Assembly (NCBI RefSeq): GCF_903913935.1
Contig: NZ_CAIWNH010000478.1
Span: 1 to 46,022, forward strand
DNA from: an uncultured Mucilaginibacter sp.
Lineage (GTDB): Bacteria; Bacteroidota; Bacteroidia; Sphingobacteriales; Sphingobacteriaceae
Reading direction: 5' to 3'
Length of the DNA: 46,022 nucleotides
Below, one piece after another: positions 7,715 to 42,541 of this stretch. The stretch's first letter is position 1. Each line of letters starts with the position of its first letter. The position numbers and the translations under genes are program-made. A model generated the notes under the pieces. That model was not told the origin of the DNA. It ran no database searches and saw nothing but the letters and a program-made list of their open reading frames with translations.

Positions 7715-10525
7715 TCAATGTGCCTCCAGCCAGTTCACCCCTGTGCCAATCTCCACCATAATGGGCACGGTAGTTTTGATGGCATTTTTCATGTTCTCCA
7801 TAATGATGGGTTTTACAATTTCCACCTCGTGATGTGGTACATCAAACACCAACTCATCATGCACCTGCATGGTCATGCGGGCATCCAGGTTGCGGGCTTT
7901 AAATTCGCGGTGGATATTGATCATCGCTATTTTTATCATGTCGGCAGCGGAACCTTGTATCGGCGCATTAATGGCATTTCGCTCTGCAAAACCACGTACC
8001 GTTTGATTGGCTGAATTAATATCGCGCAGGTACCTGCGGCGGCCCATCAGTGTGCATACATACCCGTTTTCGCGGGCAAAGTTCATGGTATCCGCCATAT
8101 AACTTTTGATACCGGGGAACTGTGCGAAATAATTATCAATTATCTCGGCGGCTTCCTTGCGGGGGATCCCCAGGCTTTGCGATAAACCAAAAGCCGACTG
8201 CCCGTAAATAATGCCAAAGTTTACCGCTTTGGCATTACGGCGCTGGGTACTGGTTACCTCCCCCAGGCTGATGCCATACACATTGGCAGCGGTAGCTGTG
8301 TGGATGTCGAGGTTTTGCACAAAAGCTTCCATCATGTTGGCATCTTTGCTGATCTCCGCAATAATGCGCAATTCTATCTGCGAATAATCCGCAGATACTA
8401 GGGTATGCCCGCTATCCCGCGGAATAAATGCTTTCCTTACTTCCCGCCCGCGCTCGGTGCGGATAGGAATGTTTTGCAGGTTGGGGTTATTGGAGCTTAA
8501 ACGCCCGGTTGCCGCTACCGCCTGGTTGTAGGAGGTATGCACCCTGCCGGTTTTACGGTTTACCATGGTCGGCAGCGCATCCACATAGGTTGATTTTAAC
8601 TTTTGCAGCTGGCGAAAATCAAGGATATCTCTTACAATATCACTTTTGGCGGCAAGCCCCATCAATACATCTTCACCGGTTTGGTATTGGCCTGTTTTGG
8701 TTTTTTTTGCTTTGGGATCGAGCATCAGTTTTTCAAACAACACCTCGCCCAACTGTTTTGGCGACGCGATATTAAAGCGTACCCCTGCTTTTTCAAAGAT
8801 GATTTTTTCGAATTTGGCGATATCTGTTTCCAGTTCTTTTGAAAATTCCTTCAGCGTTTCGTGGTCTATCAAAACGCCTTCGTACTCCATATCGGCCAGC
8901 ACATAGATCAGCGGGTTTTCAATTTCGTTAACGAGTTTTTCGCTGTCAACTTCTTTTAGTTTGGGCTCGAAAATGGTTTTCAATTGCAAGGTGATGTCAG
9001 CATCCTCGGCGGCGTATTCCTTTATTTTTTCGATCTCCACATCGCGCATGCTGCCCTGGTTTTTGCCTTTTGCACCAATGAGTTCAGTTATGGATACCGG
9101 TTTGTAATTCAAATAATTTTCAGAAAGCACATCCATACCGTGGCGGGTATCGGGGTCAATGACGTAATGGGCCATCATGGTATCAAAAAGTTGGCCTTTT
9201 ACTTCAACGCCATACCATTTCAGCATTAAAATATCAAACTTCAGGTTCTGGCCAATTTTGCCTACACCAGCATCTTCCAGCACTGGTTTAAACTCATTTA
9301 CTATCCCCTGGGTTATTTCCTGGTCTGCGGGAACCGGGATATACCATGCCTCGCCGGGCTTTATAGCGAAGGATAGCCCTACCAATTCACAATCATTGGC
9401 ATCCGTGCCGGTGGTTTCCGTATCAAAACAGAAACTTTTTTGCTGCGCGAGGATTTCAATAAGCGCTCTCCTTTTTTCAGGTGTATCTGCTAAATGGTAT
9501 TCATGTGCTACGTTATGGATGTTTTTAGCGTCTGCCGCAACAGGCGGTTCGTAAATATCCTGCATATCGACCGCCAAAACCGGGCGGCTATCATCAACAG
9601 GGGCGCCAAACAAATCCGTTTGAAAGCCGGCGGCCCGTGTTTCCGTTATGCTGAAATCATCCCCAAAAACCCGTTTACCTAAAGTCCTGAATTCCAGCTC
9701 GGCAAATAAAGGCTCCAGCAGGTCCTTGCTTGGCGGGCCCATTGCCAGGCCCTCTTCATCCAGTTCAACAGGAACATTGAGGATGATGGTAGCCAGCTTT
9801 TTCGACATCATGCCCTGATCGGCAAATTGCTCCACATTTTCGCGCTGCTTGCCTTTCAGTTCGTGGCTATGGCTGATGATCTCTTCAACCGAGCCATATT
9901 GTTTGATCAATGCCTTGGCAGTTTTTTCACCAATGCCGGGGATGCCGGGGATACCGTCGACAGCATCGCCCCAAAGGCCCAAAATATCTATCACCTGTTC
10001 AACGCGCTCAATTTCCCATTTCTCTAATATTTCCTTTACGCCTAATATCTCCATCTCGTTACCCATGCGTGCAGGTTTGTAGATAAAAATATTTTCGGAT
10101 ACCAGCTGGCCGAAATCCTTATCAGGTGTCATGCAATATACCTGGTAGCCCTGTACCTCCGCTTTTTTGGCCAGGGTGCCGATAATATCGTCGGCTTCGT
10201 AACCATCAGAGGTGATTACCGGGATATTAAACCCAAGGATCACTTTAAATATGTAAGGCAATGCCGCCGACAGATCTTCGGGCATACTTTCCCGGTGCGC
10301 TTTGTAGGCTGCAAAATCAATATGCCGTTCGGTAGGCGCTTCGGTATCAAATACCACGGCCATATGCGTAGGTTTTTCTTTTCTGATCACCTCGAGCAGG
10401 GTATTGGTAAAACCCATCACCGCCGAAGTGTTTAAACCGCCCGAAGTAAAACGCGGGGTTTTGCTCAACGCAAAATGCGCCCGGTAAATAAGGGCCATGC
10501 CGTCCAGGAGAAATAACTTTTTCAT
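7715..10525 (-). CDS. polA: DNA polymerase I with active proofreading domain
   Basis: 936 residues, the full three-domain enzyme used for Okazaki-fragment maturation and repair. The 5'-3' exonuclease/flap domain fills about residues 1-300 (LLDGMALIYRAHFAL, GYEADDIIGTLA, the helix-hairpin-helix GIPGIPGIGEKTA). The 3'-5' exonuclease starts near 365 and keeps all three motifs: FDTETTGTD, GQNLKFDIL and YAAEDADI, so proofreading is probably intact, unlike Taq-type enzymes. The polymerase domain shows VSADYSQIELRI, the O-helix RRNAKAVNFGIIYG and MQVHDELVFDVP. The ATG is at 10525; a good promoter lies at 10612-10640, inside the loop of the 10537-10720 repeat. Confidence 0.97.
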   Translation of the reverse strand: MKKLFLLDGMALIYRAHFALSKTPRFTSGGLNTSAVMGFTNTLLEVIRKEKPTHMAVVFDTEAPTERHIDFAAYKAHRESMPEDLSAALPYIFKVILGFNIPVITSDGYEADDIIGTLAKKAEVQGYQVYCMTPDKDFGQLVSENIFIYKPARMGNEMEILGVKEILEKWEIERVEQVIDILGLWGDAVDGIPGIPGIGEKTAKALIKQYGSVEEIISHSHELKGKQRENVEQFADQGMMSKKLATIILNVPVELDEEGLAMGPPSKDLLEPLFAELEFRTLGKRVFGDDFSITETRAAGFQTDLFGAPVDDSRPVLAVDMQDIYEPPVAADAKNIHNVAHEYHLADTPEKRRALIEILAQQKSFCFDTETTGTDANDCELVGLSFAIKPGEAWYIPVPADQEITQGIVNEFKPVLEDAGVGKIGQNLKFDILMLKWYGVEVKGQLFDTMMAHYVIDPDTRHGMDVLSENYLNYKPVSITELIGAKGKNQGSMRDVEIEKIKEYAAEDADITLQLKTIFEPKLKEVDSEKLVNEIENPLIYVLADMEYEGVLIDHETLKEFSKELETDIAKFEKIIFEKAGVRFNIASPKQLGEVLFEKLMLDPKAKKTKTGQYQTGEDVLMGLAAKSDIVRDILDFRQLQKLKSTYVDALPTMVNRKTGRVHTSYNQAVAATGRLSSNNPNLQNIPIRTERGREVRKAFIPRDSGHTLVSADYSQIELRIIAEISKDANMMEAFVQNLDIHTATAANVYGISLGEVTSTQRRNAKAVNFGIIYGQSAFGLSQSLGIPRKEAAEIIDNYFAQFPGIKSYMADTMNFARENGYVCTLMGRRRYLRDINSANQTVRGFAERNAINAPIQGSAADMIKIAMINIHREFKARNLDARMTMQVHDELVFDVPHHEVEIVKPIIMENMKNAIKTTVPIMVEIGTGVNWLEAH

Positions 10526-10536
10526 TTTTTTATAAT

Positions 10537-10720
10537 GATTACGCCGATTGTTGTTTTTGATTACACCGATTGATTATGTTGATTACACCGATCCATCAAA
10601 AAAGTGTGTTTCAAAAATACAACTTATGTTGATTAACAAAACTTATCGATGAAATCCTTTTTTCAAATCAATGAAATCCCCAATAAAAATCGGTGGAATC
10701 AATACCTAATCGGTGAAATC
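10537..10720. repeat. Iterated-word inverted repeat, word GATTACACCGATT
   Basis: The left arm has three copies: GATTACGCCGATT (10537-10549), GATTACACCGATT (10559-10571) and GATTACACCGAT (10581-10592). The right arm carries complementary copies: AATCGGTGGAATC (10688-10700), AATCGGTGAAATC (10708-10720) and weaker ones at 10644-10656 and 10666-10678. It fills the gap between polA (5' side) and the tag stop codon at 10721. The same word forms the hairpin at 15984-16078. Confidence 0.8.
10612..10640 (-). promoter_or_regulatory. polA promoter, Bacteroidota type
   Basis: On the minus strand TTTG (10640-10637) is followed after 17 bases by TATTTTTG (10619-10612), matching the TTTG-N17-23-TAnnTTTG consensus. 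It predicts a start near 10606 and a leader of about 80 bases that includes the left arm of the surrounding repeat. Confidence 0.6.
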
Positions 10721-11260
10721 TTATTTAAAAGAACAATCCGGCAAATGATCATTCACCATACCGGTGGCCTGCATGTGGGCATAGCAGATCGTTGTGCCGA
10801 AAAACTTAAAGCCGCGTTTTTTCATGTCCTTGCTGATCGCGTCGGAGATAGGGGTACTGGCAGGTGTGCTACCTGAAAAATTATTTATGGCCTTCCCACC
10901 TGGCATAAAACTGTACAGGTATTTATCAAACGAGCCGAATTCCTTTTGCACTTCAATAAAAAGCTTTGCGTTGTTGATGGACGATAAAACTTTAAGCTTG
11001 TTGCGGATAATTCCCGGGTCATTCATCAAACGCTCCACATCCCCATCATCAAAGGCGGCTACTTTCTGCACATCAAAATCAGCATAGGCTTTGCGATAAC
11101 CCTCGCGCCGGCGTAAAATAGTGATCCAGCTTAAACCTGCCTGGGCAGATTCCAATACCAGGAACTCAAACAGCTTTTTATCATCATGTACCTCTTTGCC
11201 CCATTCTTCGTCATGGTATTTAAGATAGAGTTCATCTTTGCCGGGCCATGAGCATCTCTT
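10721..11260 (-). CDS. tag: DNA-3-methyladenine glycosylase I; start codon replaced by an inverted repeat
   Basis: The frame encodes a full-length Tag: KRCSWPGKDELYLKYHDEEW, then LESAQAGLSWITILRRREGY, and the C-terminal KKRGFKFFGTTICYAHMQA with VNDHLPDC. The four zinc ligands of Tag (Cys of KRC, His of KYHD, His and Cys of NDHLPDC) and the base-binding Glu of LES are present. The enzyme removes 3-methyladenine from alkylated DNA. Oddity: no initiation codon exists. The codon before AAG-AGA-TGC is TTA (11263-11261), which is part of the inverted repeat at 11259-11288, and the frame meets a TAG four codons further upstream. An ATG was presumably there before. A TTG at 11155 is the only later candidate but would drop the zinc-binding Cys. 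The gene may be silent or use a non-standard start. Confidence 0.85.
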   Translation of the reverse strand, partial: KRCSWPGKDELYLKYHDEEWGKEVHDDKKLFEFLVLESAQAGLSWITILRRREGYRKAYADFDVQKVAAFDDGDVERLMNDPGIIRNKLKVLSSINNAKLFIEVQKEFGSFDKYLYSFMPGGKAINNFSGSTPASTPISDAISKDMKKRGFKFFGTTICYAHMQATGMVNDHLPDCSFK

Positions 11261-11715
11261 TAAGTCTTGAGTCTAAAGTCTTGAGTCATTTTTATTTGAA
11301 TTTTTCCGGATTGTTTATCATGAAGATTAGCAAACGCGTAACTTCGTCACTTTGCTTGTCAAGTTCATCATATTTCTCTTTGTTGATATAGTTACATGCA
11401 AGACAAGCATCCAACCACGCTTGGGTTTCACCATTTTCCATGTCGGCATCGGTTAGTTTACTAACAAAATGATTAGGATATCTTCTTTTTTTATAAGCTT
11501 CCGCAATTGATGCAAAAACCGATCTTGATGAACGCCTGATCTGATCAATTAAGCTATAGGTTTCTTCTTTAGGAAATGTTTTGGTGATGAAAAAAATTTC
11601 CATAGAAAGTGCAAAAGCCTTTTTGTATGCAATTAAATCCCGAAACGAACCCATAAATTAGAAATTTGCTAAATATAAGAAAACCTGACTCAAGACTTTA
11701 GACTCAGGACTTAAA
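11259..11715. mobile_element. Intervening-sequence-like cassette with heptad inverted repeats
   Basis: Arms at 11259-11288 and 11686-11715 are 30 bases each and complementary at 29 positions. Each arm is a heptad array, read as GACTCAA-GACTTTA-GACTCAA (or GACTCAG)-GACTTA. They enclose exactly one gene, a four-helix-bundle protein of the 23S rRNA intervening-sequence family (11292-11654), whose stop codon is 3 bases from the left arm. The outer left edge coincides with the lost start codon of tag. The right arm supplies the last two codons and the stop of the AhpD-like gene. No transposase, integrase or target duplication is visible, so the mode of movement is unknown; mobility is inferred from the architecture. 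Confidence 0.6.
11292..11654 (-). CDS. Four-helix-bundle protein, 23S rRNA intervening-sequence family
   Basis: 120 residues matching the pattern of the four-helix-bundle family known from 23S rRNA intervening sequences (S23/Avd-like): FRDLIAYKKAFALSMEIF, TKTFPKEETYSLIDQIRRSS, SVFASIAEAY, then a helix with the conserved Glu in ADMENGETQAWLDACLA, and a last helix LDKQSDEVTRLLIFMI. Structural members form pentameric basic bundles; a cellular role is not established, though binding to nucleic acid is suspected. In spirochaetes and Coxiella such genes sit inside 23S rRNA between inverted repeats. Here the gene sits between two protein genes, also within inverted repeats. It starts at the ATG at 11654, 31 bases from the right arm. 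Confidence 0.9.
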   Translation of the reverse strand: MGSFRDLIAYKKAFALSMEIFFITKTFPKEETYSLIDQIRRSSRSVFASIAEAYKKRRYPNHFVSKLTDADMENGETQAWLDACLACNYINKEKYDELDKQSDEVTRLLIFMINNPEKFK

Positions 11716-12048
11716 ACAAAGCTCATCCCAATATTCTACCGCTCTCCGGTAATGCGGAATCACAATTGATCCACCCACCAAATTGGCGATCATAAATACC
11801 TCATTCATTTCATCATGATTGACCCCCGCTTCGTGGCATTTGCCTAAATGGTATTTAATACAATCATCGCAACGCAAAACCATCGAAGCTACCAGGCCCA
11901 GCATTTCCTTGGTTTTCACATCCAGCGCGCCTTCGGCATAGGTGGTGGTATCCAGTGCGAAAAAGCGCTTGATATTGGTATTGGCGGTTTCCATGATCCT
12001 GTCGTTCATTTTAGTACGGTAGGATTCAAAATCTTCTATTAAGGACAT
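11704..12048 (-). CDS. AhpD-like / carboxymuconolactone decarboxylase family protein
   Basis: 114 residues of the alkylhydroperoxidase D-like fold. The redox motif C-x-x-C-x-x-x-H is present as RCDDCIKYH (Cys60, Cys63, His67), followed by the family helix EMNEVFMIANLVGGSIVIPH. Such proteins are thiol peroxidase partners or small reductases in oxidative stress defence; the presence of both cysteines favours a redox role over a decarboxylase. The final residues FKS and the stop codon are encoded by the right arm of the 11259-11715 cassette, so the native C-terminus may have been altered. The start ATG is at 12048. Confidence 0.88.
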   Translation of the reverse strand: MSLIEDFESYRTKMNDRIMETANTNIKRFFALDTTTYAEGALDVKTKEMLGLVASMVLRCDDCIKYHLGKCHEAGVNHDEMNEVFMIANLVGGSIVIPHYRRAVEYWDELCFKS

Positions 12049-12060
12049 GTTTAATTAGTG

Positions 12061-12260
12061 AGTTATTGAATTAGTGATTGATGTAATTTCGGATTTCGGA
12101 ATTTCGATTTCGGAATTAGAGCTGCAATTTTATTTATTGATCGGTGCAAAGTTCTAAAAAAGTATCGCGGTGTCCATATTTCCTAAAATAAAAAATCCGA
12201 AATCGAACATCCGAAACGGCATAGCCTTCTTGAACACCGTTAAAAATAAACCATCGTGAA
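12061..12260. repeat. Iterated-word inverted repeat, word TTTCGGAT/TTTCGATTTCGGA
   Basis: TTTCGGAATTTCGATTTCGG and on (12094-12117) is complementary at 21 of 24 positions to 12193-12216 (AAATCCGAAATCGAACATCC and on). A further half-copy GAAAAATCCGAAAT lies near 12257-12270. The left side is preceded by another iterated word, GAATTAGTGATTGATG (12068-12083). It fills the gap between the divergent AhpD-like and VOC genes and must include both promoters; no TAnnTTTG box was recognised. Confidence 0.7.
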
Positions 12261-12303
12261 AAATCCGAAATAAAAAAATAAATTTACTTCAAATTAAAAC
12301 CCC

Positions 12304-12681
12304 ATGGAAAGTCTCTCCCCCAACATTTTCGTTGAAGACATGAACGAAACCATCAGTTTTTATATGTCTATCGGATTTCAACTGGTAATGACCGTACCCG
12401 AAGCCGGTACTGAATTTGTTTGGGCGATGATGAGCAATGGCGACGTTACCTTTATGTTCCAGACCTTTGAAAGTTTGGATAAGGAACTCCCGAATATCAG
12501 CCGGCGAAATGGCGGATCGCTGTTGTTTTATATCAAACTTAAAAAGATTCGCGAGTTTTTTGAGTTGATCCATGAAAAGGTAACGGTATTGAAAGGCCTG
12601 GAAACCACTTTTTACGGCGCTACCGAATTCTCCATCCTTGATAATAATAACTACGTTTTAACTTTTGCAGAGGACGAATAA
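12304..12681 (+). CDS. VOC (glyoxalase/bleomycin-resistance fold) protein
   Basis: 125 residues with the repeated beta-alpha-beta-beta-beta layout of the vicinal oxygen chelate superfamily. The opening MESLSPNIFVEDMNETISFY and MSNGDVTFMFQTFESL are typical of the first half. The superfamily includes glyoxalases, dioxygenases and antibiotic-binding proteins, and the residues do not allow choosing among them. Its stop TAA overlaps by one base the ATG of a second VOC gene at 12681, so the two are an operon and may form a heterodimer; that partnership is inferred only from coupling. Confidence 0.85.
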   Translation: MESLSPNIFVEDMNETISFYMSIGFQLVMTVPEAGTEFVWAMMSNGDVTFMFQTFESLDKELPNISRRNGGSLLFYIKLKKIREFFELIHEKVTVLKGLETTFYGATEFSILDNNNYVLTFAEDE

Positions 12682-15967: not shown

Positions 15968-15983
15968 AATTTTTGATTTTTTT

Positions 15984-16078
15984 GATTACACCGATTTTGT
16001 TCTTTGATTTCACCGATTATGCCGGCTTTATAACCGGGCAATCAAAATCAGTGTAATCGAAAATAAATCGGTGTAATC
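15984..16078. repeat. Iterated-word hairpin, word GATTACACCGATT
   Basis: GATTACACCGATTT (15984-15997) pairs perfectly with AAATCGGTGTAATC (16065-16078); the second unit GATTTCACCGATT (16006-16018) pairs with AATCAGTGTAATC (16046-16058) with two mismatches; GCCGG/CCGGGC closes the tip. It occupies the gap between lemA and the TPM gene inside one operon, so it should appear as RNA. The word is the same as at 10537-10720. Confidence 0.9.
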
Positions 16079-23715: not shown

Positions 23716-23726
23716 GGGGAGTTGGT

Positions 23727-23860
23727 GGTTCATCGTTCATGGTTCATTGCGAAAACCATCAAAGGCTATAATATTTTTAATTTTTTGCAACAAAATGGGC
23801 CTCCCGTGCATCAAATAAGCGAAAACCTATTTTTTTACTATGAACCATGAACTATCAACC
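23727..23860. repeat. Iterated-word inverted repeat, word GGTTCAT
   Basis: Left arm 23727-23747 (GGTTCATCGTTCATGGTTCA...) is complementary at 19 of 21 positions to the right arm 23840-23860. The arms are 7-base iterations of GGTTCAT/AGTTCAT; the right side carries one extra unit up to 23867. It is the first of four loci with this word (also 39082, 40902, 41571). Confidence 0.85.
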
Positions 23861-23933
23861 ATGAACCAAATAAAACTTTGTTGCATTTAACAAGATTGTT
23901 ACGTTGGCGCATAGGCGGCAAACTTTAATTGTT

Positions 23934-35857: not shown

Positions 35858-35860
35858 TGC

Positions 35861-36008
35861 GGATGTGCGGATGTGCAGATATGCAGATGTGCAAATGAAA
35901 AAATTGCGACAGGATATTAATCTTAATTTATAATTAGCGTATTAGCAAATTCAGTTCTAACCCATCAACAAATTTCCTCCATCTGCATATCTGCACATTT
36001 GCACATCC
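35861..36008. repeat. Iterated-word inverted repeat, word GCAGATGT
   Basis: Left arm 35861-35889 (GGATGTGCGGATGTGCAGAT then ATGCAGATG) matches the complement of 35980-36008 at 27 of 29 positions. The arms are 8-base iterations (GCGGATGT, GCAGATAT, GCAGATGT). The loop is 90 bases. It separates two convergent genes and reaches the last base before the stop codon of the 36009 gene. Same word as 3144-3240. Confidence 0.9.
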
Positions 36009-36725
36009 TCAAGCTGCATGGGAAATATATTTCACCAAACTTCTTTTTGCCACCGGCAGCAGGGTTTGTTCAAGCGGAAACGTAATATCGCTCTGCACAT
36101 AATACACCGCCGGGTTGGGCAGGTATTTGTTTCTGCGGATCAGGTCGAGTTTGATGGCCTCCGGGGTTTTGGTAATGCTTTCTTCGTATGTTTCTAAAAA
36201 CTGGATATTGATGCCCCGGTATTTATCGTCCTTATTCTCAAAAATGGTGATCTGGTACTCATAGATGCCGTGCGTTTTTTCTTTACCGTTGCGCAGCGAA
36301 AAGTAGCCATGGTAAGGCATCAGTGGTACAATGCCTACAGGATCAATTACCAGGCATTTTTCAACAAAATCATAAATTTCCTTACCGGTTTGTATGGCCG
36401 GGTCCATTTTTTGCATTGCATAGGTAATGATAAGTTCTATCTCGCGCATGGAACTGTCATCATCAACAATTTTTTGGTAGGTAAGCTTTACTGCTTCAAT
36501 ATCAGCCAGGGTTAAGCGCTGCGGAAATGCCTGCTGCAGCATGGTTTTGTTCTTTTTAAAATACAAAAGGTTATTAAAGTGGAAGATCAGGTCGGTAAGG
36601 TTGGGGTACAGCCTGCTTTTATCAAAATGACGGTTAATTTCCTGTAAATAATCCAGCAGGATGTATTTTTTATGCTCAAAATCGATCGATCCCTCAATAA
36701 ACCAGTTTTTACTTAGCTCTTTCAT
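36009..36725 (-). CDS. Conserved hypothetical protein
   Basis: 238 residues from the ATG at 36725, preceded by AAAGGAAATG as a plausible ribosome site; a frame starting at a TTG at 36743 is less likely. No signal peptide or membrane helix. Notable segments are LLDYLQEINRHFDKSRLYPN, HFNNLLYFKKNKTMLQQAFP and the C-terminal YVQSDITFPLEQTLLPVAKR. I believe it is conserved among Sphingobacteriaceae but cannot name a family. It is divergent from the RsmI-like gene, with a short 54-base gap between the starts. Confidence 0.7.
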   Translation of the reverse strand: MKELSKNWFIEGSIDFEHKKYILLDYLQEINRHFDKSRLYPNLTDLIFHFNNLLYFKKNKTMLQQAFPQRLTLADIEAVKLTYQKIVDDDSSMREIELIITYAMQKMDPAIQTGKEIYDFVEKCLVIDPVGIVPLMPYHGYFSLRNGKEKTHGIYEYQITIFENKDDKYRGINIQFLETYEESITKTPEAIKLDLIRRNKYLPNPAVYYVQSDITFPLEQTLLPVAKRSLVKYISHAA

Positions 36726-37493: not shown

Positions 37494-39101
37494 GTGACCC
37501 TCAGTGAACTACATACCCCGGTATTGATCGTCGGCGCAGGGCCTTCGGGGTTGATGATGGCCGCGCAATTGCTCAGGTATGGTATTCAGCCTGTAATTAT
37601 TGACAGTAAACAGGGGCCAACCGATGAATCAAAAGCCCTGGCGGTACAGGCCCGGTCGCTGGAGATCTACCGGCAGATGGGGCTTATTGACCGCGTGTTG
37701 GAAGGTGGCAAGGCGGCAGAGGGCCTTTCATTTACCCTGGATGGCAAAAAGGCGGCATCCCTTTCATTTAATAATGTTGGCGAAGGGCAAACGGCTTTTC
37801 CGTTTATTCATTTGTACCAGCAAAGCAAAAACGAAAAGCTGCTGCTCGATTTTTTAACACGCCATGTTTGCCCGGTTTACTGGGAAACCGATTTAGTTTC
37901 GCTTAAACAAACTGAAAAGAGTGTTGAAGTAAATCTTCAAAATTCCGGACATGCGATCACCTTAACTTGTGATTGGGTGATCGGCGCGGATGGCGCCCAC
38001 AGCACCGTACGCAAACAATTGAACATCCCGTTTAGTGGTGATACCTATGCCCACGAGTTTTACCTGGCCGATGTTGAACTCCTGAATGAAGAAATAAACG
38101 ATGGTTTTGTACATCTTTGCCTCGGCAAGCAGGGTTTTTCTGGATTTTTCCCGATGGCGGAGCCTAACCGATACCGCGTCATCGGCAACCTGCCGGTTAT
38201 ATTGGAAAAAAAAGAAGGCCTTCGGATTGAAGATGTGTTACCCTACCTGCAAAATGTTTCAGGTGTGCAGGTAAACGTCAAAAATAATTACTGGTTTACT
38301 ACCTACCGCCTGCACCACCGCATGGCTGATAAATTCAGGGAGCAGCGATGCTTTTTAATTGGCGATGCGGCGCACATTCACTCGCCGGTAGGCGGCCAGG
38401 GCATGAACACCGGTTTGCAGGATGCCTATAACCTTGCCTGGAAGCTGGCCGGAGTAATAAACGGCCGTTTAAAACAACCCATCCTTGACAGTTATGCCGC
38501 TGAACGGATGCCCGTCGCCAAAACATTACTGAACACTACCGACAGGGTATTCAACATCGTGATGTCAAACAAATGGTATAGCCGGATATTTAAAACCTGG
38601 TTGATGCCATCGGTGTTGAAATTTGCATGGAACAACAAAGGCATCAGGGAAGAACTTTTTAAGCGTGTCTCGCAAATCAACATCAACTATCGCAATAGCG
38701 CCATTAGCCTGCAAATTAGTCAATCTACTAAAATAAAGGCCGGCGACCGGCTGCCTTATCTGAAAGTTTTTGATGAAAAAAAACAGGAGGAAACCGACCT
38801 GCACGAATGGTGCAGCAAGCCCGGCTTTACTTTTATTGTTTTGGGGAAACTGGCAGAGAGCGATCTTTTTATGCTTGCGAAATGGATCACGCAAAATTAT
38901 CCGGCAACATTAAATTTCTTCTACCTGCCGCCATCTGCAAAAAACCTGCACGTTTTCGAGACCTTTGAAATTGATTCAAACCGTGTAAAGTCCCTCATCG
39001 TTCGCCCCGACATGCACATCGGCTTTATAAATGATAAGGTGGATATGGTTTTGACGGATAATTATTTGAGGAATATTGTTGGGTTCATGGTTCATAGTTG
39101 A
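37494..39101 (+). CDS. FAD-dependent aromatic-type monooxygenase
   Basis: 535 residues starting at a GTG (37494). All three flavin-hydroxylase motifs are present: VLIVGAGPSGLMMAAQLLRY (ADP-ribose binding), CDWVIGADGAHSTVRKQL (the DG motif) and CFLIGDAAHIHSPVGGQGMN with the following TGLQDAYNLAWKLA (the GD motif). The C-terminal 120 residues form a thioredoxin-like domain as in phenol hydroxylase. It should hydroxylate a phenol-like or polyketide-like substrate using NAD(P)H; which one is unknown. The final residues GFMVHS and the TGA are coded by the GGTTCAT repeat at 39082-39111, so the native C-terminus may have been changed. Confidence 0.9.
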   Translation: MTLSELHTPVLIVGAGPSGLMMAAQLLRYGIQPVIIDSKQGPTDESKALAVQARSLEIYRQMGLIDRVLEGGKAAEGLSFTLDGKKAASLSFNNVGEGQTAFPFIHLYQQSKNEKLLLDFLTRHVCPVYWETDLVSLKQTEKSVEVNLQNSGHAITLTCDWVIGADGAHSTVRKQLNIPFSGDTYAHEFYLADVELLNEEINDGFVHLCLGKQGFSGFFPMAEPNRYRVIGNLPVILEKKEGLRIEDVLPYLQNVSGVQVNVKNNYWFTTYRLHHRMADKFREQRCFLIGDAAHIHSPVGGQGMNTGLQDAYNLAWKLAGVINGRLKQPILDSYAAERMPVAKTLLNTTDRVFNIVMSNKWYSRIFKTWLMPSVLKFAWNNKGIREELFKRVSQININYRNSAISLQISQSTKIKAGDRLPYLKVFDEKKQEETDLHEWCSKPGFTFIVLGKLAESDLFMLAKWITQNYPATLNFFYLPPSAKNLHVFETFEIDSNRVKSLIVRPDMHIGFINDKVDMVLTDNYLRNIVGFMVHS

Positions 39102-39174
39102 TGGTTCATGGCAACTGCAAATTTTGGATACCGATACGTTTTTTCCATGAACTATGAACCATCAACCATGAACT
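39082..39174. repeat. Iterated-word inverted repeat, word GGTTCAT, spanning two stop codons
   Basis: Left arm 39082-39111 (GGTTCATGGTTCATAGTTGA and on) and right arm 39145-39174 are complementary at 25 of 30 positions, loop 33 bases. The left arm encodes the last residues and stop of the monooxygenase; the right arm overlaps the last bases of the miaE stop. It could terminate both convergent transcripts, but has no U-run. Confidence 0.9.
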
Positions 39175-40901: not shown

Positions 40902-41022
40902 TAGTTCATAGTTGATGGTTAATAGTTCATAGTAAAAATCAATTATTTACGGCAGGAGAAATAAGTAATACCAGATTGTACTGCGCAGCTGCCATGAACT
41001 ATGAACCATGAACCATGAACTG
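40902..41022. repeat. Iterated-word inverted repeat between gmk and nadD
   Basis: Arms 40902-40932 and 40992-41022, 31 bases each, complementary at 26. Units are TAGTTCA/TGGTTCA/TAGTTGA words of 7 bases. The right arm encodes the last residues and stop of gmk (FMVHGS, then TAG), and the left arm lies directly before the nadD ATG. Confidence 0.9.
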
Positions 41023-41577
41023 CCTCACCAACTCCTCCGCCTCGCTGCAAGCCGTTTGAAGATCGTGATTTTTTAGGATAATATCAAATTCCGGCGCATA
41101 ATTCAATTCTTTTTCTGCTTTTGCAAAACGCTCCTTTAATTTTTCAGGACTATCAGTACCACGGCCGGTTAATCGCTCAATAAGTACCTCCAGCGATGGC
41201 GGCTGTACAAATATGGCCAGCGCCTGTCCGTCGTATTTTCTTTTGAGGTGTAATCCGCCAATTACGTCGATATCAAAGATCACTGTTTTTCCTTCAGCCC
41301 AGATCCGTTCAATTTCGGTACGAAGGGTACCATAAAAAGTGCCGGTATATACTTCTTCAAATTCAACAAATTGTTTTTTTGCAATGCGGTGCAAAAATTC
41401 CTCTTTGCTGATAAAATAGTAATCTTTACCATGTTGTTCATCGCCGCGGGGCTTGCGGGTAGTTGCCGATACTGAAAACTCAAGCTGCGGTACTTTACCA
41501 AGCAAGTGCTGAACAATGGTTGTTTTACCTGCTCCTGATGGTGCCGAAAATATGATGAGTTTACCTTCCTGGTTCAT
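40999..41577 (-). CDS. gmk: Guanylate kinase
   Basis: 192 residues. It phosphorylates GMP to GDP. The P-loop LIIFSAPSGAGKTTIVQHLL is at residues 7-26, followed by the GMP-binding VSATTRKPRGDEQHGKDYYF and VEFEEVYTGTFYGT, then KTVIFDIDVIGGLHLK and the lid region RLTGRGTDSPEKLKERF. Both ends of the gene come from iterated repeats: the ATG and first codons (ATGAACCAGG) lie in the left arm of 41571-41667, and the tail FMVHGS plus stop lie in the right arm of 40902-41022. The core is intact, so activity is expected. Confidence 0.95.
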   Translation of the reverse strand: MNQEGKLIIFSAPSGAGKTTIVQHLLGKVPQLEFSVSATTRKPRGDEQHGKDYYFISKEEFLHRIAKKQFVEFEEVYTGTFYGTLRTEIERIWAEGKTVIFDIDVIGGLHLKRKYDGQALAIFVQPPSLEVLIERLTGRGTDSPEKLKERFAKAEKELNYAPEFDIILKNHDLQTACSEAEELVRQFMVHGS

Positions 41578-41667
41578 GGTTCATAGTTCATGGTTCATAG
41601 TGTGGAGCATAGGATGATATTCGGCTTTTGCTTTCTACCATGAACCATGAACCATCAACTATGAACT
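41571..41667. repeat. Iterated-word inverted repeat between yicC and gmk
   Basis: Arms 41571-41600 and 41638-41667, 30 bases, complementary at 25. Four 7-base units per arm (GGTTCAT, AGTTCAT, AGTTGAT). The left arm contains the gmk start codon; the right arm supplies the yicC stop codon TAG (41668-41666). Confidence 0.9.
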
Positions 41668-42541
41668 ACAATACGTTCAGTAGTTGTTCTTTAATTTTTT
41701 CCAATTCTTCTTTCATGCCTACTACCAGCTTTTGAATATTGGCATCATTGGCTTTTGAGCCCAGCGTATTTATTTCGCGGCCTATTTCCTGGGAGATGAA
41801 ACCCAGTTTTTTGCCATTGGCATCGTCATTTTTTAACGTCTCAATAAAATAATCGCAATGCGCGTTCAGGCGGATCTTTTCTTCAGTAATATCAAGCTTG
41901 TCAATATAGTAGATCAGTTCCTGCTCAAAACGGTTCTGGTCGATGGCTTCGCGGCCAACGGCTTCGGCTAAAAACTGGTTTAAACGTTCCCTGATCACCG
42001 GAACCCGTTTAGGTTCTTCTATCTCAATCAGCGTAAGGTTTTTTAAGATGATGCCGATACGCATTTTTGTATCCTGCTCCAGTATCTTACCCTCATCTAT
42101 CCTGAATTGCTGAAACGCTGCTAAAGCCTGTTTAAATGTTTTATCTGCTACTTTCCACTCCTCTTCCGAAACAGTTTCCTCGGCGTATTTAATCACTTCG
42201 GGTAAGCCGAGCGCTAATTCCAGTAAATTATTGGATTGCTCATTAAAATCAAGGCTAACTGCTTTTAATTGCTCATAATAGTGTTTAAGCAATTCTTTAT
42301 CAATTCCGGCAGCTTTCACCGTCGAGTCGGCTTTTTCAACGTTGAAAGAAAGGTTTACTTTACCGCGTTCAATTTGCTTACTGCATTCATTACGCAACTG
42401 AAATTCTTTTTCGGTAAAAGATTTTGGCAGCCGCAGCGACAATTCCAGGAATTTACTATTGAGTGATTTTATCTCGACGGTATATTTTGTACTCCCGGAG
42501 TCAAAACTGGCAATTCCATAGCCGGTCATGGATTTTATCAT
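41666..42541 (-). CDS. yicC: YicC family endoribonuclease
   Basis: 291 residues from the ATG at 42541 (MIKSMTGYG is the family start; a TTG two codons earlier is inside the promoter box). Signatures: SMTGYGIASFDSGSTKYTVE, EIKSLNSKFLELSLRLPKSF, RNECSKQIERGKVNLSFNVE, and the C-terminal DANIQKLVVGMKEELEKIKE QLLNVL region with RLNAHCDYFIETLKND before it. YicC-type proteins are RNases that affect small-RNA and mRNA decay. It heads the yicC-gmk-nadD run, and each gap in that run carries a GGTTCAT-word hairpin, a possible RNA-processing site. A box 3 bases from the ATG suggests leaderless transcription. Confidence 0.92.
   Translation of the reverse strand: MIKSMTGYGIASFDSGSTKYTVEIKSLNSKFLELSLRLPKSFTEKEFQLRNECSKQIERGKVNLSFNVEKADSTVKAAGIDKELLKHYYEQLKAVSLDFNEQSNNLLELALGLPEVIKYAEETVSEEEWKVADKTFKQALAAFQQFRIDEGKILEQDTKMRIGIILKNLTLIEIEEPKRVPVIRERLNQFLAEAVGREAIDQNRFEQELIYYIDKLDITEEKIRLNAHCDYFIETLKNDDANGKKLGFISQEIGREINTLGSKANDANIQKLVVGMKEELEKIKEQLLNVL

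Follow-up and report, generated by a model that had tools for sequence, protein, structure and literature searches.

Genes of the PF05635 family enclosed by inverted arms of short iterated words very probably form a family of mobile cassettes, since they are inserted as whole units, their ends vary between loci in step with the protein lineage, and hairpins of the same kind occur without a gene. We analyzed one such cassette in the window, a stretch of 46,022 nt from an uncultured Mucilaginibacter sp., together with its relatives, and found that the cassette has entered gene clusters in at least two phyla of bacteria. Among open PMC papers, no listed title or abstract opening describes a word-armed PF05635 cassette.

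The cassette in the window and its neighbors

The two arms (TTTAAGTCTTGAGTCTAAAGTCTTGAGTCA and TGACTCAAGACTTTAGACTCAGGACTTAAA; Table 1) pair at 29 of 30 positions in a scripted recount and enclose a single gene, which confirms the sequence-only reading of 30-base heptad arms around one member of the intervening sequence (IVS) protein family. Read on the forward strand, arm 2 consists of the heptads GACTCAA GACTTTA GACTCAG GACTTAA. Gapless extension lengthens the arms to 41 nt each (11248-11288 and 11686-11726) with a score of 28.5, as compared with best scores of 16 in three shuffled windows and of 14.5 in dinucleotide-shuffled controls (605 flank pairs of 121 loci). The segment 11240-11735 has a predicted RNA fold of -134.4 kcal/mol (z -5.5). 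Read in the direction of the PF05635 gene, the AhpD-like gene comes first, followed by one arm, the PF05635 gene, the other arm and tag, which places the cassette outside any rRNA gene, and an Rfam search of 10400-12400 gave no match. The cassette codes for one protein alone, a PF05635 four-helix bundle; a transposase or recombinase was found neither in the open reading frame list nor by profiles or structure.

Table 1. Positions of the cassette, the adjoining genes and the gene-less hairpins in the window
Feature	Position	Strand	Remarks
Arm 1	11259-11288	+	AAGTCTTGAGTC heptads; distal in gene orientation; region expected for the tag start
Four-helix-bundle protein gene	11292-11654	-	PF05635 / TIGR02436, 120 aa
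Arm 2	11686-11715	-	Proximal in gene orientation; 29/30 paired with arm 1
Whole cassette including 41-nt arms	11248-11726	-	From gapless arm extension and RNA fold
tag (3-methyladenine glycosylase) ORF	10721-11155	-	Frame continues upstream into arm 1; no start codon
AhpD-like gene	11704-12048	-	Final codons and stop inside arm 2
Gene-less iterated-word hairpin	12094-12216		TTTCGGAA words; loop of 75 nt
Gene-less hairpin	23726-23861		GTTCATGG words, the word of coding copies L002 and L003 of the same genome
Gene-less hairpin	39083-39173		GTTCATGG words; between convergent genes whose stops lie inside (by eye)
Gene-less hairpin	40902-41019		GTTCATGG words
Gene-less hairpin	41566-41668		GTTCATGG words

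The encoded protein scores 108.8 bits against PF05635 (cut-off 33.8) and 96.3 against TIGR02436 (cut-off 24). These matches and the location between two protein genes support the earlier proposal that the unit is an IVS relative that codes for protein and lies outside rRNA. We modeled the protein with AlphaFold2 (pLDDT 97.7) and searched the model with Foldseek, which returned 2GSC and 2RLD first, followed by Avd (4DWL, E 0.018) and a diversity-generating retroelement (DGR) reverse transcriptase complex (8UB7, chain C; E 0.095). Despite their weaker E-values, the matches to 4DWL and 8UB7 reach TM scores of 0.76-0.90, and the predicted fold is that of Avd, a retroelement accessory protein. The protein is probably a pentamer, because the entries of both solved relatives, 2GSC and 2RLD, contain five chains. 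An alignment of 23 sequences has four invariant residues (Q38, S45, E52 and E76), and no catalytic motif was recognized in it. Six orthologues differ by dN values of 0.08-0.16 with dS above 2 or saturated, and the cassette protein is thus under purifying selection. In-frame stops interrupt 4 of the 12 copies in the window's own genome (G000, a draft of 603 contigs); sequencing errors could also produce them.

The cassette was suspected from the start to have reshaped both adjoining genes, and the gene ends support this. The stop codon of the AhpD-like frame (11704-11706) is provided by arm 2, and the tag frame lacks a start codon between an in-frame TAG and the first tag motif (tag 5' region, 11155-11288 of the window). 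In sister genomes with the cassette, the tag ATG lies 13 codons (G017, G020, G011 and G019) or 20 codons (G023) before the first motif. Because these two positions are 21 nt apart, corresponding to three heptads, the distal arm encodes the N-terminus of Tag in these five sisters. The G000 arms, as read from a single draft assembly, are each one heptad shorter than those of G017, and tag is consequently out of frame and without an in-frame start codon. The 5' region of tag in G000 is a possible frame switch.

We compared the site in 20 genomes, including the window's own, and found the cassette in six of them (partly by eye); at this site the remaining genomes have different content, including gene-less hairpins built from other words. 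The comparison of sister genomes thus bore out that relatives differ at this site, but it left no clean empty site visible, as the candidates carry other hairpins, REP-like repeats, longer inserts, or no adjoining tag. No target duplication is visible at the window copy. The insertion is old, as its orthologues have saturated dS. Between tag and the AhpD-like gene, L137 (G021) and L141 (G015) contain differing REP-like palindromes, GTCATTGCGAGGAGG... and GTCATTCAGAGCGAC..., respectively. In several of the 20 genomes (L122-L141, by eye), a one-sided array of ATTCACTA-like 8-mers with no obvious partner arm is located just before the start codon of the AhpD-like gene.

Distribution, orientation and evolution of the arms

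In G000, all 12 places with a PF05635 match lie between inverted iterated words (scores 16.5-34), and the words differ between them (AGTCCGAA, GTTCATGG, GGTAAAAGG, GACTCAA, GTCATTGG, AATTAGTG and others). We next considered 41 related genomes with 232 family matches, 121 of which, mostly the strongest, were examined for arms. Whether members of the family in this clade carry inverted repeats had been a key point of the sequence-only reading, and most of those examined do: 114 of 121 loci score above 12.0, the 99th percentile of dinucleotide-shuffled flanks, and seven do not (L027, L028, L031, L046, L106, L110 and L114). The median score is 19.5 for a locus's own flanks, 8.5 for shuffles and 8.5 for flanks swapped between loci. 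Two of 33 ordinary window genes pass the threshold (12.5 and 28.5), and the gene with the higher score (40999-41577) has a gene-less hairpin on either side. Among the 114 armed loci the word period is 7 in 85, 8 in 19, 6 in 5 and 9 in 4, with no period in 1.

A survey of the phylum found the family in 116 of 148 genomes, and 21 of 30 loci (the best match from each of 30 genomes) have arms, with 9 failing the threshold. Among loci from named organisms, of which we took the best 80 of at least 581 confirmed, 60 of the 79 testable ones have arms and 19 fail; those passing include metagenome-assembled genomes labeled, in the records, as Ignavibacteriae, Opitutae, Alpha- and Betaproteobacteria, and Bacillota. 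The family is matched in 28 plasmid records, 17 of which belong to Nostocales judging by the genus name, and no match was found in the phage records searched. Judged by score alone, eleven of 12 cyanobacterial plasmid stretches, a set that includes three pairs of the same or a near-identical insertion, have heptad arms with scores of 15.5-30; L347 scores 10.0.

Coding copies in Bacteroidota lie in the sense direction of their neighbors. With each site group represented by a single locus (context readable for 55 of 59) and the longest nearby open reading frames taken as flanking genes, we found 47 groups between co-directional genes, with a sense to antisense ratio of 47:0, as well as 6 groups between convergent and 2 between divergent genes. 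The named loci comprise 54 sense, 1 antisense and 1 divergent case (56 of 60 readable). For ordinary genes (window plus a sample of G010), the corresponding counts are 157 in the same and 46 in the opposite direction. Transposases in cas loci are reported in a 2013 paper to be on the opposite strand in 36-69% of cases (PMC3936711, in excerpt). By annotation, 9 of the 12 plasmid copies are sense between co-directional genes, 2 are antisense (L343 and L345) and 1 is convergent. Gene-less hairpins are found in 14 co-directional, 5 divergent and 3 convergent contexts (22 readable of 23, some duplicates), and adjacent ordinary gene pairs in 236, 51 and 58, respectively.

The word tracks the protein lineage across sites and families. 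A Mantel test of word against protein gave r 0.489 for 114 loci, a value reached by none of 2000 permutations, when leaving out 193 of 6441 pairs judged to be same-site, and r 0.443 in a cross-species set of 90 loci (named species, class relatives and 15 hand-picked same-genus loci), reached by none of 1000; same-site calls relied on shared 13-mers, and some distant same-site pairs may persist in these sets. Among different-site pairs, the word (5-mer cosine >0.3) is shared by all 22 with a protein identity of at least 0.8 and by 1.1-1.5% of those with an identity below 0.4. Within G000, L002 and L003, L004 and L005, and L006 and L008 have common words at different sites.

The arms undergo concerted evolution: their sequence changes, yet the two remain complementary. 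In 152 pairs from orthologous sites (17 site groups), the within-locus arm-to-arm score remains at ~20 at every protein identity, while the score between same-side arms of orthologues drops from 25.1 (identity at least 0.85) to 20.2, 15.6 and finally 13.1 (0.55-0.65), where it equals the opposite-side score of 13.0. The within-locus score exceeds the same-side score in 105 of the 152 pairs, and the relation is reversed among close orthologues. Units are arranged in mirrored order, with scores in 90 of 101 loci that are higher than the mean of unit permutations, and fewer than 5% of permutations reach the observed score in 37 of 101. In 110 of 114 loci, the 5' arm is richer in G than in C. Where the arms mismatch, there is no sense-strand bias toward G-U wobble pairs (100 versus 121, with 196 transversions), and the mismatches thus do not place the pairing at the RNA level. 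A period indivisible by three would give every frame a stop, and the arms do provide stop codons for neighboring genes. A three-frame stop signal was rejected as the function of the arms, with inward stops in 1.89 frames versus 1.83 in column-permuted arms.

Plasmid insertions and gene-less hairpins

Near-identical cyanobacterial plasmids either carry the complete cassette or lack it altogether, which supports the mobility originally suggested. The cassette is located on Trichormus and Scytonema plasmids and absent at the same place in three plasmids of 97-98% identity, where the comparison reveals an exact 5-bp duplication, GTAAT (L346 versus L353 and L354; L355 versus L361). A relative from the same word family (AGTCAG) is found on the Nostoc plasmids in L365, L367 and L368 and is absent from L352 and L366. 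The cassette is flanked by TTCTA on each side in L365 and L368 and by TTCTG on the right in L367. We consider TTCTA a probable duplication; in L365 and L368, compared with the empty site, one base following the right TTCTA is missing, and the arm word itself might include TTCT. No clear duplication was read at the junctions of Calothrix L349 and of Nostoc L341 and L352 (TAATG versus TTATG in L352). The Bacteroidota set gives no signal of target duplication: the two sides have a 5-mer in common at 17 of 114 loci, as compared with 18.8% of swapped pairs. Two candidate empty sites were discarded: the search for L178 returned dispersed arm matches alone, and at the L094 site G012 carries another hairpin.

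Gene-less hairpins bear the same word beside coding copies. We counted overlapping exact pattern matches on both strands, coding copies included, and obtained 121 matches to the GTTCATGG word in G000 and 217 in G014 (at most 2 per strand for reversed patterns), and 65 to the window word in G000 (reversed controls of at most 1 within the genus and up to 18 in one class relative); some of these matches are plain tandem arrays. In tests based on the part of the coding copies that had their words read, genomes in which a coding copy of the word was seen contain more matches to it (p 0.0003, 7 versus 18 genomes), as is the case for a second word (p 0.003, 6 versus 19 genomes; both one-sided). G013 and G014 contain 57 and 54 window-word matches, respectively, with no coding copy seen. 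A third word, RGTAKCA, was dropped as a hairpin cohort (0-7 matches per genome versus up to 11 in reversed controls), as was a conserved hairpin loop, since the loops look unrelated by eye. Among inverted repeats in 400 kb of G010, 5 of 23 are periodic.

At the convergent-gene site of Table 1 (39083), the relatives differ: G021 has a hairpin built from a different word, G013 a Y1 match, and G001 and G018 a short gap. The G013 locus, L215, contains a Y1/RAYT-like gene amid REP-like palindromes where G000 has the GTTCATGG hairpin. A longer iterated word, GATTACACCGATT, forms gene-less inverted repeats at 10536-10720 and 15979-16063 of the window; the former lies between polA and tag (by eye), and a similar word occurs in G017 at the 39083 site. 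An 8-nt word, TGTGCAGATG, forms gene-less hairpins in the window (35858-36011) and in G010 (L166, 9346-9403; L170, 4152-4238), and no coding copy of it was found among the loci read.

Possible mechanisms and relation to known elements

Our preferred explanation, which we hold tentatively and rate somewhat short of an even chance, combines an Avd-like-protein cassette, a word read by the cognate protein, and transcription-linked movement. Because the protein, probably as a pentamer, would bind its cognate iterated stem, the word could act as a recognition signal that co-evolves with it. Gene-less hairpins would be served in trans by the cognate protein, and the cassette would be expressed by read-through from the upstream gene. 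Movement would probably proceed via a transcribed or single-stranded intermediate, which would account for the sense placement, and would borrow host or reverse transcriptase functions. Residing in an operon, the protein may persist by handling its own hairpin in the host mRNA. The sense bias and the Avd fold favor a transcription-linked intermediate, and the exact 5-bp duplication favors a DNA integration step. Long vertical persistence under purifying selection argues against this explanation, as it is unusual for a purely selfish element. The missing G-U bias, the single exact duplication with none signaled in Bacteroidota, the two antisense plasmid copies and the loci below the arm threshold (7 of 121, 19 of 79 and 9 of 30) also count against it. 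A reverse transcriptase profile search found none at E 0.001 in 21 of the 41 family-carrying genomes, including the single-contig G010 and G012, and one match in G000, on another contig. Y1 transposases are present in 37 of the 41 genomes and absent from four, including G033 with 12 copies. No standing helper is therefore identified, and neither reverse transcriptase nor Y1 is supported as an obligatory one.

In an unlikely, though not far-fetched, alternative the cassette would behave as an IVS at the RNA level, excised by RNase III at its paired arms and copied back by a reverse transcriptase recruited by the Avd-like protein. The family shared with IVS proteins, the Avd fold with 8UB7_C among the matches, the sense bias (47:0 and 54:1) and the stable predicted RNA hairpin (z -5.5) are consistent with this. 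However, the 21 genomes without a reverse transcriptase match, the missing G-U bias and the two antisense plasmid copies speak against it, and the exact 5-bp duplication suits DNA integration at least equally. We regard it as improbable that a host or IS transposase recognizes the hairpins and moves them as DNA in trans, with the gene a passenger or accessory as in MITE- or REP/RAYT-like systems. Such a transposase would fit the terminal inverted repeats, the 5-bp duplication, the gene-less hairpins, the 37 genomes with Y1 and the Y1 match at one shared site (G013). Being sequence-specific, it would leave ends that vary by locus and follow the protein unexplained, and Y1 is missing from four genomes, G033 with its 12 copies among them. 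The 47:0 sense bias also counts against it, as such a strong bias is unexpected for IS-like insertion.

Lower still we place a host regulatory or mRNA-processing unit, inherited mostly vertically, with repeats generated by slippage and arm correction and transposition only in the past. Recent unit insertions on plasmids, words repeated at different sites of one genome, in-frame stops in 4 of 12 own copies and the many different host neighbors are hard to reconcile with such a unit, even if it would account for orthologues that occupy one site in as many as 11 genomes, the strong purifying selection, the concerted arms and the sense placement between co-directional genes. The origin of the window in a 603-contig draft might point to chance or an assembly artefact of simple repeats; this can practically be dismissed, as the arms are reproduced neither by shuffles or swaps nor by 31 of the 33 ordinary genes of the window, and the same anatomy in complete plasmids and single-contig genomes refutes it.

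We compared the cassette to known systems. In Leptospira, the 23S rRNA IVS contains an open reading frame of the same S23p / 23S_rRNA_IVP family. The Coxiella IVS, as described in an excerpt of PMC4990558, has a 28-bp stem, a length of 428 nt and an S23p / 23S_rRNA_IVP frame. The rRNA IVS and the cassette share the protein family, one open reading frame between terminal inverted repeats, and suspected mobility. They differ in that the cassette resides in operons and intergenic sites rather than in rRNA and that, judging from the descriptions, its arms are locus-variable words that track the protein and are found in gene-less hairpins too. MITEs and REPIN/RAYT systems are multicopy short non-coding hairpins whose ends match those of a coding element. 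The cassette resembles them in its many non-coding copies with the ends of a coding copy, as in the four GTTCATGG hairpins of the window. Unlike in these systems, its coding member is a PF05635 protein without a Y1 or DDE transposase, and its ends vary by locus, a 7/8-nt periodicity being what most of them share.

Cyanobacterial heptanucleotide STRRs were reportedly described by Mazel in 1990 and by Jackman and Mulligan in 1995. TAACTGA direct repeats occur in Beggiatoaceae, cyanobacteria and some Bacteroidetes (PMC4679880, in part). Both are degenerate tandem heptads in intergenic DNA, and the cassette arms are heptad-built as well (11 of 12 plasmid stretches), a likeness to the heptad form described for STRRs. 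These are described as direct repeats with no evident mechanism of spread, whereas the cassette heptads make up two complementary arms that enclose a PF05635 gene. Some of the heptanucleotide repeats scattered through cyanobacterial DNA may derive from such cassettes. Avd of DGRs (PDB 4DWL and 8UB7; excerpt of PMC10053308) is similar in fold and, distantly, in profile, but the cassette lacks a reverse transcriptase gene.

Members of the same family have also been noted inside operons and rRNA genes: 23S_rRNA_IVP genes occur in cas loci, in the orders cas6-IVP-cas4 and cmr2-IVP-cmr3, where they were reported as a function found there (excerpt of PMC3936711), and in rRNA insertions of CPR bacteria (excerpt of PMC11270868). 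On our cyanobacterial plasmids, L344 and L348 have the gene between cas6 and cas4 and carry heptad arms, and insertion may thus explain them without a cas function. L363 contains the gene between cmr2 and cmr3, and PCC 7002 pAQ6 (L369) has no gene there. IVP genes in cas loci once read as a CRISPR-associated function may be insertions.

Whether the cassettes constitute a distinct class of mobile element, with ends set by the 7/8-nt periodicity of a freely changing word rather than by a fixed sequence, a cognate Avd-like reader, no known recombinase, and heptad DNA as gene-less progeny, is in our judgment almost evenly balanced. Such a class would range over Bacteroidota and Cyanobacteria and probably further phyla, and its progeny would make up much unexplained heptad DNA of cyanobacteria and Bacteroidetes. 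The cassettes offer a testable cause both for the presence of PF05635 genes in places as different as rRNA, cas loci and operons and for some of the heptanucleotide repeats of cyanobacteria and Bacteroidetes. The many natural pairs of protein and word may help to establish how a helical bundle might read a nucleic acid stem. If true, a one-gene element with co-evolving word ends would represent a new self-recognition logic for mobile DNA.
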